In this document: piece after piece, positions 142 to 25,105 of the stretch | How the letters are laid out: each line of letters begins with the position of its first letter | Numbering within the stretch: position 1 is the stretch's first letter | Assembly (NCBI GenBank): GCA_027460605.1 | Contig: JAPZAN010000236.1 | Location: 1-36,093 of the forward strand | DNA length: 36,093 nucleotides | Source: Candidatus Methanoperedens sp. | GTDB lineage: Archaea > Halobacteriota > Methanosarcinia > Methanosarcinales > Methanoperedenaceae | Direction of reading: 5' to 3' | The notes under the pieces: generated by a model | Seen by the model: only the letters and a program-made list of their open reading frames with translations | Told to the model about the DNA's origin: nothing | Databases searched by the model: none | Program-made: the position numbers and the translations under genes

Positions 142-300
142 ATGTATATTGCAGAGTGGCAGATTCGAGCCTTTCAAGCCTTAGCTATAGCATTAGGAAT
201 AACTGGACTATTTACATATATAATTAATTTAATAATTAATAAAAATATAAAGAAGGATCGGACAAAATTAGATAAGATTGTATTGGAGCATGGACATTAG
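142..300 (+). CDS. small membrane protein, 52 aa
   Basis: ATG preceded by AAGGAGG-type RBS (127-135); translation MYIAEWQIRAFQALAIALGITGLFTYIINLIINKNIKKDRTKLDKIVLEHGH with one hydrophobic helix; absent from the ORF track because of length. Confidence 0.5.
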   Translation: MYIAEWQIRAFQALAIALGITGLFTYIINLIINKNIKKDRTKLDKIVLEHGH

Positions 301-407
301 TAAACATAATCCAACATCTATATGGTTTTTATTTTACCTCTAAACTGTCGAAGAATTATGATAGATAAAATCAACATCACTATTTCGAGGAGAAATGCTT
401 TGATTCT

Positions 408-7660: not shown

Positions 7661-7733
7661 TAGTCCCGGGCGGATTCGAACCACCGTCTCCGGCTCCAAA
7701 GGCCAGAAGGATTGACCACTACCCTACGGGACT
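7661..7733 (-). tRNA. tRNA-Gln (TTG)
   Basis: Reverse strand AGTCCCG TAGGGTAGTGGTCAATCC TT CTGGC CTTTGGA GCCGG AGAC GGTGGTTCGAATCCGCC CGGGACT A; cloverleaf with TTG anticodon. Confidence 0.92.
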
Positions 7734-10176: not shown

Positions 10177-10581
10177 TTATTCCGAAGGAATAAGTGATCT
10201 TATTTTTATAAGTCTTTTAACTTCCTCTACAGGAAGAAGAATTCCATACACCTCATCCACTTTTGGATTTGCCGGGTCTACACCATATTTTTCAATGTAT
10301 AGTTTCCTTGCGTCTTCTTCGATAGTTAAAGATTCATTTGTACTTATTCCACCAGTCGTGGTATTTCCATCCAATACCGTTCCTTCTAAATAATGAGGTA
10401 ACTCACCCCGTGCAAACTTTATATCATTTTCTGTTATGTTATATTTCAAATACTGGTCTTTTAGTTCTTCCTGTGTGTAGTCTAATTTATTTGGTATCGC
10501 GATGCTTGAATATGCAGCCAAAACTCCTATAAATATTATTAATAAAAGTGCTAACACGATTATTATTCTACTTTTATTCAT
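10177..10581 (-). CDS. exported hypothetical protein
   Basis: N-terminal signal/TM segment; RBS GGAGG upstream; leader copy 1 directly upstream. Confidence 0.65.
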   Translation of the reverse strand: MNKSRIIIVLALLLIIFIGVLAAYSSIAIPNKLDYTQEELKDQYLKYNITENDIKFARGELPHYLEGTVLDGNTTTGGISTNESLTIEEDARKLYIEKYGVDPANPKVDEVYGILLPVEEVKRLIKIRSLIPSE

Positions 10582-10621
10582 CTTACTTTTCCTCCTTTAA
10601 TTCTTTTGTTTTGTTTATCCC

Positions 10622-10816
10622 AGAGGCAAAACCGGCAAGCTTTAAGTGATTTCAAAGCATACCTGACCATGCCTTCGGGCATCTGGGGTTCAGTTGCTCT
10701 TGCGGAACGGCTAAACCCCACGTTTTTTCACGGGCTATAAAATTCGTTGTTATAGTTTTTATCTCCCCAACCTGCCAACTTACCACCCATTTTTATGTAC
10801 AGGATTTATTCATCTG
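10622..10816 (-). promoter_or_regulatory. conserved structured leader, copy 1 (strand inferred)
   Basis: Aligns along its length with 12991-13188 and 20316-20518; contains TGCC-TTCG-GGCA hairpin and TGGGGTT...AACCCCA stem. Confidence 0.7.
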
Positions 10817-11093: not shown

Positions 11094-11786
11094 TCATTGC
11101 TGTCGAACAAATAACCATACAAGGAGAATGGAAACCAATCCGCCGAATAATTCAAAACCAGACACTGATTTATTTGGAGCTTCGCCTGCTTGGGATGTGT
11201 TCCTGTTCTGGGGTGGAGTTACGCTCCTATTTTCATAAACTGTCATTGTCAATATGGGAGGGGCTGCGAGCTTGAATGCTACTGGAACTTCCTGAATGCC
11301 TATTGTTTTAGCTTCTTTGTCTATTATTCCATATATTTCATCAACAAGAGACGCATTCACAGTTGCATTTTCATAAAAATCTACATAGAAGAAGCCCTCC
11401 CAATCAAAACCAGACGAAATTACAGTCCCATTTGGATGAATATAAGGAAGCATGTTATCTCGTATCCCAATTCTAATTTTATCAAGCTTATCTAGCCAAC
11501 TTCGTCTTTCTTTATCGGTGGCATACTTAGGTATTATTCCCCGCGTCTCTATAACCTTAGGATCTTTTTTCAACTTTTCGAAAACTTCAGGCCCGAAGTC
11601 AGGGATATCTTTATCCTGAAGTTCAGAATCGTTCAATCCCAGTAAAACACGCTCCGGTATATCCTTTCTCTCTGAAAAATTGCCTCCATGTACAGTAATC
11701 GCAATACTAAGGATAACAAAAACTACTATCAAAAAATACTTCTGTTTTCCCATTTTTTCCTCCATAAAAAATAAAGGGGATATCAA
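11094..11786 (-). CDS. membrane-anchored paralogue of the protease N-terminal domain (no protease domain)
   Basis: Nearly identical to residues ~40-170 of the downstream-coordinate protease; ends SGFELFGGLVSILLVWLFVRQQ; likely start ATG 11752. Confidence 0.85.
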   Translation of the reverse strand: MISPLFFMEEKMGKQKYFLIVVFVILSIAITVHGGNFSERKDIPERVLLGLNDSELQDKDIPDFGPEVFEKLKKDPKVIETRGIIPKYATDKERRSWLDKLDKIRIGIRDNMLPYIHPNGTVISSGFDWEGFFYVDFYENATVNASLVDEIYGIIDKEAKTIGIQEVPVAFKLAAPPILTMTVYENRSVTPPQNRNTSQAGEAPNKSVSGFELFGGLVSILLVWLFVRQQ

Positions 11787-11809: not shown

Positions 11810-12946
11810 CTACCTAGTAAGAACATTTACGCTCAAACTATTCTTTACGTTAGAAATCTTGGAAAAATATGAGCTACCAAAAATTCCTGCGTTAATTCCC
11901 GCTATGAAACGATTAGAATTAGCATCCAAATACCATACTGGTGCGCCACTATCTCCTCCTTCGGTATAGTACGTCGCAAATGCCTGATCGTATAGATGAT
12001 AACCGTTCCAATATACTTCACCGAAACTTGTCACAGTTCCTCCGTTTACGCCTGTCGTCCTGCCCGATTTAAAAACTTGCATTCCAATAAATGGATCTAT
12101 AAAACCCTTCACTGGAACCCTTACTCCTCCGCCAATATGGATTGATGCTTCAACATTATTGTAGGGTACAAATGCTGCATCGGCAGTATTAGTTCCAACC
12201 TTCGAAACAGTTCCGGCTTGATACCCAGATTGCGAAGTATCTGGTTGGTATACCACTGTACCAACTATAGGAGCAAAGTGATTTGCTACTACATAGCCTT
12301 TATTTCCATTGGTATCCTGTGCAGCAAAGCCCAATGTACCAATTCCACCACTTGCTCCGTTAACTACTTGCACTCCTCCGATTACAGGACGGTAGTAATC
12401 TTGATAACCTGCCAATGTCAACTTGGGAGGACCTGAGACCTTAAATTCTACTGGGACTTCCTGAATTCCTATCTTAATAGCTTGTTTATCTATTATAGCA
12501 TAGATTTCATCAACAAGAGACGCATTCACAGTTGCATTTTCATAAAAATCTACATAGAAGAAGCCCTCCCAATCAAAACCATACGAAATTACAGTCCCAT
12601 TTGGATGAATATAAGGAAGCATATCATTTCGTATACCTATTCTAATTTTGTCGAGTTTATCGAGCCAGCTTCGTCTTTCTGTATCGGTTGTGTACTTAGG
12701 TATTATTCCCCGCGTCTCTATAACCTTTGGATCTTTCTTCATCTTTTCAAAAACTTCCGGCCCGAAGTCAGGGATATCTTTATCCTGAAGTTCAGAATCG
12801 TTCAGTCCCAGTAAAACACGTTCCGGTAGATCTTTCGGAAATTTTTTGAATTCTTTGTTTGGGGCGGCGGTACCAGCAAATGCTAATGCGACCAGCAGCA
12901 TCACCGCAAGCATCGCGCCTAATTGCATTCCTTTATTTTTCTTCAT
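11810..12946 (-). CDS. exported chymotrypsin-like (S1-fold) serine protease with N-terminal prodomain
   Basis: VVANHFAP (His), NTADAAFVP (Asp), GGDSGAPVW (Ser); signal peptide MKKNKGMQLGAMLAVMLLVALAFAGTAA. Confidence 0.82.
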   Translation of the reverse strand: MKKNKGMQLGAMLAVMLLVALAFAGTAAPNKEFKKFPKDLPERVLLGLNDSELQDKDIPDFGPEVFEKMKKDPKVIETRGIIPKYTTDTERRSWLDKLDKIRIGIRNDMLPYIHPNGTVISYGFDWEGFFYVDFYENATVNASLVDEIYAIIDKQAIKIGIQEVPVEFKVSGPPKLTLAGYQDYYRPVIGGVQVVNGASGGIGTLGFAAQDTNGNKGYVVANHFAPIVGTVVYQPDTSQSGYQAGTVSKVGTNTADAAFVPYNNVEASIHIGGGVRVPVKGFIDPFIGMQVFKSGRTTGVNGGTVTSFGEVYWNGYHLYDQAFATYYTEGGDSGAPVWYLDANSNRFIAGINAGIFGSSYFSKISNVKNSLSVNVLTR

Positions 12947-12990
12947 ATTTTTATTTCTCCTTTATATTTTCTTTTCTTTGCTACCCTCAT

Positions 12991-13188
12991 CAGGCACGGC
13001 GCTGGCTTTAAGTAAACATAAAGCAAATACTACCATGCCTTCGGGCAATGCTGGGGCTCAGTAGCTCTCTTGAAGCGGCGACTGAGCCCCACGTTTTTTC
13101 ATGGGCTGTAAAATCCGTTGTTAGAGTTTTATCTCCCCAACCTGCCAACATTACCACCCATTTTTAGTACAGGATTGTTCATCTGTAC
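12991..13188 (-). promoter_or_regulatory. conserved structured leader, copy 2 (strand inferred)
   Basis: See copy 1; TGGGGCTCAGT...ACTGAGCCCCA 11-bp stem; reverse-strand TATA box TTTATATA at 13211-13218 about 22 nt upstream of its 5' hairpin. Confidence 0.75.
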
Positions 13189-13317
13189 ACCACCTAATTT
13201 TCATGTAATGTATATAAATTTATCGTTTTTTTACTTTTAAATAATAAATTCAAAAAAGAAATATTTATATTAACAAACAATATATCAAAATTAGAAAAAA
13301 CGGTTAGTTAAAACAAA

Positions 13318-19855: not shown

Positions 19856-20287
19856 TTAGTAGACCCTCAGCGCGAACTGGTAAGACAAAGCTTTCCAATC
19901 AGGCGTAGCGTATACATTTATATAGGATGAACCATCTGCCGAATTTACTATAAAGTTTCCTGCTGTTGATCCTTTAAGCTGTAAATTGGTATATGGTCCA
20001 TCAAATGCATCCAGCCTAGCTCCATTATTCCAATCGGCTGTATCTATCTGATACCATAGGCGATCGTTTCTAACTGTATTTGGTCTGTACCAGTCTTTGT
20101 CATAAGATGTAATAGTTCCCTGATAGATTGTCCACTCTGTAGTATACTTAGGCGATATTACTATATTGGCAGCACTTCCAGGGGTATCACCCGCATCTCC
20201 ACCGCTTGGCGGATCTGCCAGCGCCACACTGCTTAATATGCTAAGTACCATCAGAGCCATCACTCCTATTCTTATGCTTGCTTTCAT
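19856..20287 (-). CDS. exported protein with pre-peptidase C-terminal (PPC)-like domain
   Basis: Signal peptide; GGDAGDTPGSAANI...YQGTITSYDKDWYR resembles PPC domains. Confidence 0.6.
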   Translation of the reverse strand: MKASIRIGVMALMVLSILSSVALADPPSGGDAGDTPGSAANIVISPKYTTEWTIYQGTITSYDKDWYRPNTVRNDRLWYQIDTADWNNGARLDAFDGPYTNLQLKGSTAGNFIVNSADGSSYINVYATPDWKALSYQFALRVY

Positions 20288-20315
20288 TCTTTTTCACCTC
20301 CTTTTTCATTTACTC

Positions 20316-20518
20316 CGGAGGCAAAACAAGGCAAGCTTTAAGTGATTTTAAAGCATACTTTACAATGCCTACGGGCACCTGGGGTTCAGTTGCTCTTGTG
20401 GAACTGCTGAACTCCACATTTTTCATGGGCTGTAAAATCCGTTGTTAGAGTTTTATCTCCTCAACCTGCCAACTTTACCGACCCATTTTTATGTACAGGA
20501 TTTATTATTCATCTGTAC
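20316..20518 (-). promoter_or_regulatory. conserved structured leader, copy 3 (strand inferred)
   Basis: See copies 1 and 2; TATA box TTTATATA (reverse strand, 20541-20548) about 22 nt upstream of 5' hairpin GTACAG...CTGTAC. Confidence 0.75.
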
Positions 20519-25017: not shown

Positions 25018-25105
25018 GCCGAGGTAGTCTAGCCAGACAAGGCGTCAGACTGATAATCCGATAGATCGCGTCATGTCATCGCGGGTTCGAATCCCGTCCT
25101 CGGCG
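25018..25105 (+). tRNA. class II (Ser-type) tRNA with apparent anticodon GAT
   Basis: 88 nt; acceptor GCCGAGG/CCTCGGC, discriminator G, D arm GTC..GGC, anticodon arm TCAGA-CTGATAA-TCCGA (A-C mismatch), 19-nt variable region, T arm GCGGG-TTCGAAT-CCCGT. Confidence 0.75.

Follow-up and report, generated by a model that had tools for sequence, protein, structure and literature searches.

A conserved two-hairpin leader RNA upstream of secreted-protein genes in methane-producing and methane-oxidising archaea, with a putative Shine-Dalgarno switch

Few archaeal cis-regulatory RNAs are known or predicted (PMC7247131, PMC11549558), and none described in those reports fits the element characterised here. 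Archaeal L7Ae regulates through a 5′-UTR kink-turn (PMC5539422, PMC6298567), in a leader that resembles the new element in being part of an mRNA near the Shine-Dalgarno (SD) sequence and in sharing the GAU-GA core of some Methanoperedens copies. The L7Ae leader, however, sits on the l7ae gene itself, whereas the new element is a two-hairpin RNA on many secreted-protein genes, most copies of which have no kink-turn. The archaeal ribosomal-protein leaders S15, eL15 and L4 (PMC7247131) are likewise conserved cis RNAs of related archaea found by comparative genomics, but they lie before ribosomal genes, while the new element is multicopy, precedes signal-peptide genes and has no match in Rfam 15. 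An alternative pairing able to hide the SD is also used by translational riboswitches whose platform is an anti-SD; PMC11549558 cites archaeal cases, among them the fluoride riboswitch. Unlike these, the new element has no known ligand or Rfam match, and its genes are defined by export rather than by metabolic pathway. Bacterial c-di-GMP riboswitches are a single class found in many copies before diverse, often exported, proteins, and the new element is similar in this respect, although it gave no match to the c-di-GMP Rfam families. Its mode of action appears to resemble that of translational riboswitches or protein-gated leaders, and with neither ligand nor protein identified its membership of either is not established.

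The window, the whole 36,093-nucleotide stretch of DNA analysed here, comes from a Candidatus Methanoperedens (archaeal) genome of 2.13 Mb in 286 contigs. The original prediction had claimed a three-copy element before reverse-strand genes, and this held: all three copies are on the - strand, and each ends 16-30 nt 5′ of an ATG, just before the ribosome-binding site, with the gene behind it opening with a signal-peptide-like segment. A DNA search of the same genome with copy 1 recovered copy 3 (E 7e-62, 87% identity) and copy 2 (E 3.5e-40, 82% identity) and no further copy; a fuller covariance-model search also returned three copies, a weak fourth match to model R1 being absent with model R2. 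The features of the window are as follows.

10609-10727 (-): copy 1, conserved core (P1 and P2), type 1 (anti-SD form); model R1, 115.1 bits, E 1.5e-32, filters off
10711-10720 (-): copy 1, P1 5′ strand UGGGGUUUAG, pairing with 10693-10684; from sequence, fold and helix 1 covariation
10684-10693 (-): copy 1, P1 3′ strand CUGAACCCCA; from sequence, fold and covariation
10670-10680 (-): copy 1, P2 left strand GCCCGAAGGCA, near-invariant, with an alternative local fold GCC-CGAA-GGC; from sequence, alignment and fold
10622-10626 (-): copy 1, anti-SD CCUCU in the P2 right strand; from sequence and a family-level permutation test
10591-10595 (-): copy 1, SD GGAGG; from sequence
10728-10809 (-): copy 1, 5′ extension spanning the GUACAG-type hairpin region, limited to some members of the genus and with weak structural support
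10177-10581 (-): gene 1, 134-aa exported protein of unknown function; N-terminus resembles a signal peptide, no Pfam match
12977-13098 (-): copy 2, conserved core, type 2 (kink-turn form without an anti-SD); model R1, 77.1 bits, E 2.9e-21
12984-12996 (-): copy 2, right strand UGCCU-GAU-GA-GGG, forming the bulged side of a consensus kink-turn; from sequence and the kink-turn rule
about 13045-13036 (-): copy 2, left strand CCC-GA-AGGCA, kink-turn partner of 12984-12996; from sequence
13211-13218 (-): TATA-box-like TTTATATA 5′ of copy 2; from sequence, start-site position inferred
11810-12946 (-): gene 2, secreted trypsin-like serine protease (weakly supported), 378 aa, signal-peptide-like N-terminus
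20304-20423 (-): copy 3, conserved core, type 1; model R1, 117.5 bits, E 3e-33
20317-20321 (-): copy 3, anti-SD CCUCC; from sequence
20297-20301 (-): copy 3, SD GGAGG, complementary to 20321-20317; from sequence
19856-20287 (-): gene 3, 143-aa exported protein without a Pfam match; N-terminus resembles a signal peptide

The 5′ extensions of copies 2 and 3 reach about 13176 and about 20505, respectively, and the same TTTATATA lies 5′ of copy 3 at about 20548-20541, within a TATA-containing promoter sequence common to copies 2 and 3. The assignment of gene 2 as a serine protease, made in the original prediction, is only weakly upheld by a match of residues 190-374 to PDB 2SFA (E 0.0078) and by a match to NF051463 (E 8e-5) that falls under that model's cut-off. 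The PPC-like assignment of gene 3 was not confirmed, as the Pfam search found no PPC domain.

The element is a two-hairpin RNA of about 120 nt lying just before the ribosome-binding site. Hairpin P1 comprises an outer stem of 10 bp that varies in sequence, a small inner stem, which is the weakest part of the structure (56-58% of cells paired), and a loop rich in purines. Hairpin P2 is long and imperfectly paired, with a left strand GCCC-NN-AGGCA..., an apical GCUUU-loop-AAAGC and a right strand ...UGCCUC-N-GGAGU; its sequence is nearly invariant beyond what pairing requires, and the internal loops are conserved. Folds of single sequences broadly match this arrangement (z -4.4 to -5.2). Across 95 sequences outside the seed, double-sided changes are found at 32 of 36 pairs, and 83.7% of cells are paired, compared with 71.6% after shuffling of the 3′ letters and at most 46% with slid partners. 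The covariation score of the same set is 0.380, against 0.183 ± 0.006 for shuffled and at most 0.101 for slid alignments, with 0 of 500 shuffles reaching it, and the result was repeated on 112 sequences. The alignment was fitted to the model and so is biased toward the structure, yet the slid and shuffled controls remain far lower. Given these compensatory changes outside the seed, and a fixed position and orientation before coding starts, we therefore regard the element as a structured cis-regulatory leader RNA, and have little doubt that a conserved leader RNA of secreted-protein genes is real. A leader peptide was rejected, there being no common open frame (copy 1 encodes MNKSCT*, while copy 2 reads differently).

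The structural claims of the original prediction fared variously. Its compensated long stem, present in the window copies, is P1, and its GCTTT...AAAGC hairpin is seen as the apical part of P2. The TGCC-NNNN-GGCA hairpin held only in part, since this local form competes with the longer helix P2, the form folding predicts, in which the partner of GGCA is a UGCC lying about 35-45 nt further downstream. The proposed length of about 195 nt likewise held in part, with the conserved core limited to the 120 nt given above: the GTACAG/CTGTAC 5′ hairpin recurs in the window copies but fails as a general part, the first ~75 nt being limited to part of the genus. Eight pairs of this 5′ extension showed a single double change, and it was rejected as a general part of the element on the grounds of this near absence of covariation and its restricted occurrence.

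Searches at the DNA level found copies in 26 of 101 genomes, and a strict sequence pattern matched only ten stretches, nearly all from Methanoperedens. A covariance model (R1) of 15 aligned sequences, with the structure specified by hand, gave matches in 106 of 188 genomes from the order, in 77 of the 120 of good quality, and in 18 of 27 genera, amounting to at least about 590 copies, a lower bound as no more than 19 candidates were scored per genome. Extending the R1 search to the phylum gave full-length matches in further families at E about 1e-6 to 1e-10, the weaker matches beyond the order including Methanomicrobiales-like families and one genome taken as Methanocella. A second model (R2), built from a non-seed set, found the element in 93 of 397 genomes of the phylum. 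Fuller searches of individual genomes yielded 14 copies in G155, 16 in G116 and 25, the largest number in a fully searched genome, in G162; we take G155 to be Methanosarcina acetivorans C2A and G195 to be Methanocella arvoryzae MRE50. No match was obtained when viral contigs were searched with a 5′-domain pattern. Against Rfam 15, the window at the gathering threshold returned two tRNAs only, 20 further loci a group II intron only, and a permissive search of the three window loci chance-level matches only; the claim in the original prediction that the element belongs to no named class thus held. The open-licence literature we searched does not describe it, and the folded leader, absent from both, is likely to be previously unlisted. 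As to the other RNAs seen, the two tRNA genes of the window lie at 7661-7733 (-) and 25018-25105 (+), and locus L096 contains a group II intron domain (RF02012, 59.3 bits) at 185-319 (-).

When starts were chosen by the presence of an SD, then ATG, then proximity, 127 of the 150 elements analysed had an accepted start codon within 60 nt, at a median of 16 nt from the model end. A signal-peptide-like N-terminus was found in 120 of these 127 genes compared with 12 of 299 background open reading frames (Fisher p 5e-82). The background was drawn from random 19-kb stretches of related genomes, as neighbouring secreted genes contaminate a background from the same loci (47%) and make it unsuitable. 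The detector is a hydropathy heuristic recognising a charged and a hydrophobic segment, not SignalP, and some leader genes are homologous to each other. Several of the seven exceptions look as if their starts were miscalled; of the elements lacking an accepted reading frame, several precede visibly frameshifted or truncated signal peptides. Loci L046, L104, L145 and L162, in which the leader is followed by a frameshifted or early-stopped signal-peptide gene, are apparent pseudogenes or sequencing errors. The downstream proteins are diverse (48 clusters among 112), and most have no Pfam match; those matched are mainly secreted peptidases, comprising C39-like peptidases (8) and reprolysin/matrixin metallopeptidases (up to 6 members per family), along with transglutaminase-like proteins (2), subtilase and NosD/beta-helix families. 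Their signal peptides are alike, those of Methanoperedens being close to MKxxKGMQLGALLAAMLLLSMAFVPAVSAQ. Directly after the L142 element (2139-2260, -), a portion of the leader 3′ end (TGTGCCCCCGGGGAAACATAGAACATAAAC) recurs about 66 nt farther downstream.

The broader claim that a cis-acting RNA leader serves a secreted-protein regulon is thereby supported by covariation, by position at gene starts, by the signal-peptide association and by the lack of an Rfam match. Covariation in further homologues, placement at gene starts and association with signal peptides had each been put forward as a check, and each was passed, the first strongly and in sequences outside the seed. The original prediction left the subtype as riboswitch, thermosensor or protein-bound leader, and our data do not choose among these.

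Upstream sequences vary between groups while the leader remains unchanged. Several Methanosarcina copies carry TTTATATA 22-23 nt before the model start, a spacing from which a transcription start site near P1 may be inferred; in the absence of RNA data, that the leader forms part of the mRNA is also an inference, one with which these TATA-like boxes are consistent. In many copies outside the window the TATA box is preceded by AGTTNGATGATNTGGNCANAAA, which some of them carry as an inverted repeat, CCAAATCATCNAACT...AGTTNGATGATTTGG; this motif is absent from the three window copies. At least 15/18 is scored by 33 of 116 upstream regions, where the shuffled maximum is 14, although the motif was derived from the same sequences and the test is not independent. 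Exact matches number 16 in G155, with none for the reversed control. From this recurrence in the sequences we infer that a common transcription factor probably serves part of the regulon. Examples of the operator-like motif are found at L037, L097, L111, L115 and L154, and a second upstream motif, around GATGAATATTCATC, occurs in the Methanosarcinaceae-like copies L100, L103, L107, L108 and L116.

In most copies the P2 right strand contains CCUCC, CCUCU or CCUCA, complementary to the SD of the gene itself: CCUCC is accompanied by GGAGG in 25 of 30 cases, CCUCA by UGAGG in 7 of 11 and CCUCU by AGAGG in 13 of 29, while three Methanomicrobiales-like copies combine GUCUCC with GGAGAC or GGAGAU. 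The left-strand nucleotide facing the fourth-base C is often an A, a mismatch, so the right strand seems to be kept for more than P2 pairing. Anti-SD strands pair more strongly with their own SD region (-9.35 kcal/mol) than with swapped ones (-8.76 kcal/mol; z -4.5, p printed as 0.0000, 10000 permutations) when permuted within eleven sub-lineages, with near-duplicates removed and overlap of the SD and anti-SD windows excluded. Under the same permutation test three control strands of the same RNAs gave no signal (z -0.3, -0.9 and +1.1). Methanosarcina and Methanomicrobiales contribute most of the own-SD signal, and in Methanoperedens alone the preference is not significant (p 0.12); ancestry finer than the lineage strata could possibly inflate the difference. 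SD complementarity, in addition to structure, position and gene association, is thus shown. If the P2 left strand is made unavailable in the folding calculation, the highest SD:anti-SD pair probability climbs on average from 0.20 to 0.90, exceeding 0.5 in 72 of 77 leaders, and the mean unpaired probability of the SD drops from 0.62 to 0.06. The mutually exclusive, SD-hiding pairing expected of a translational riboswitch is therefore met, by prediction only and in type 1 copies only.

On balance we lean towards a model in which the leader gates translation of dispersed secreted-protein genes through an SD switch, the trigger being unknown and expression data lacking. In type 1 copies a closed P2 would leave the SD free and the gene on, while an open P2 would allow CCUCC to pair with the SD and turn the gene off, the P2 left strand then being tied up in its local GCC-NNNN-GGC hairpin or bound by some factor. 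A single trans signal, a protein or small molecule recognising P1/P2, would then set the output of many exported proteins. That the folds interconvert in cells, that this affects translation and that one factor drives it are all inferred. Against the switch, P2 has an average advantage of about 9 kcal/mol, so opening would require a strong partner or kinetic control. The switch cannot be universal, since the anti-SD is present in 77 of the 98 leaders typed and absent from 21, nor is the default state uniform, some copies such as copy 3 being predicted to have a sequestered SD without any blocking.

Some Methanoperedens copies (type 2) carry a kink-turn or tandem G-A form instead of the anti-SD, with GCCUGAUGAGGG, GCCUGAGGG or similar in place of CCUCC; as they lack CCUC, the anti-SD model does not cover them. 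A kink-turn is recognised by a 3-nt bulge followed by tandem G-A pairs, the rule used for assigning copy 2. The GAU-GA version of type 2 with the left strand CCC-GA-AGGCA, as in copy 2, satisfies this consensus, and the kink-turn strand CCUGAUGA is found in 5 of the 98 typed leaders. Type 2 would probably work through a bound protein. A kink-turn bound by L7Ae was rejected as the general mechanism, being confined to part of Methanoperedens while most members have CCUC[CUA]GG, and the kink-turn near the SD that an L7Ae leader would require in all members is seen only in copy 2 and some Methanoperedens copies.

Two alternatives to this SD-switch reading, or specifications of it, are each less likely than not, though far from excluded. 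In the first, a protein-bound leader, P1/P2 would be occupied by an RNA-binding protein of its own, or by L7Ae at the kink-turn, which would repress translation or stabilise the mRNA, CCUC being a protein contact. The near-invariance of P2, the consensus kink-turn of copy 2 and its relatives and the precedent of L7Ae favour this idea, but the kink-turn is limited to part of one genus, and contact alone does not predict a strand that tracks its own SD within lineages. We rate a metabolite riboswitch as equally likely; it is a form of the SD-switch explanation with the trigger specified, P1/P2 being an aptamer for a peptide, amino acid or nucleotide second messenger and CCUCC the expression platform. 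The conserved internal loops, the purine-rich P1 loop, the anti-SD platform and the presence of one RNA over many distinct genes are in its favour; there are no binding data, however, the overlap of aptamer and platform is strong, and P2 is very stable.

The remaining possibilities command less support. If the leader were a tag taking the mRNA to the membrane or the SRP/Sec machinery independently of SD control, the signal peptide, the one property common to nearly all the genes, would be explained, but the matching of anti-SD to SD is not predicted, and with only three copies in the Methanoperedens genome most secreted genes there must be leaderless; we consider this unlikely. Similarly improbable is a bolder reading in which an export-dedicated RNA class responds to export capacity, or anchors the mRNA at the membrane or the Sec machinery, and so couples translation to secretion; to our knowledge no archaeal RNA leader is known to couple translation of a secreted regulon to secretion in this way. 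An RNA thermometer, in which P2/SD pairing melts with temperature, has the support that temperature-responsive 5′ UTRs are discussed for Methanolobus (PMC5378194) and that SD:anti-SD pairing is possible. It is nevertheless very improbable, as in most copies the more stable fold predicted at 37 C frees the SD, the opposite of a simple thermometer, and sequence conservation is far above what a thermometer needs. Non-regulatory repeated DNA, whether the end of a mobile element or a duplicated cassette of promoter and signal peptide, might account for leaders in tandem clusters and for the likeness of the signal peptides, but is virtually ruled out by compensatory changes in both hairpins. A transposon end, which had been named as a refuting outcome, is also unlike an element of fixed orientation and fixed distance from the start codon with differing promoters upstream, and was rejected.

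The element is widespread in methane-producing and methane-oxidising archaea and marks a peptidase-rich secreted regulon, offering a handle, with a testable switch, on the control of what these archaea release. Its presence in the genome taken to be that of Methanosarcina acetivorans places it in a genetically tractable species. Tandem arrays of leader-bearing secreted-protein genes are also seen, with nine leaders on one strand within 31 kb of G162 (contig C1, 2844576-2875862). In the window, directly after the copy 2 protease gene, an open reading frame at 11094-11786 (-) shares 72% identity over 183 aa with the signal peptide and pro-region of the protease, but is without the protease domain and has a hydrophobic C-terminal tail; inferring from its sequence, it could possibly be a membrane-anchored inhibitor that shields the cell from its own protease.
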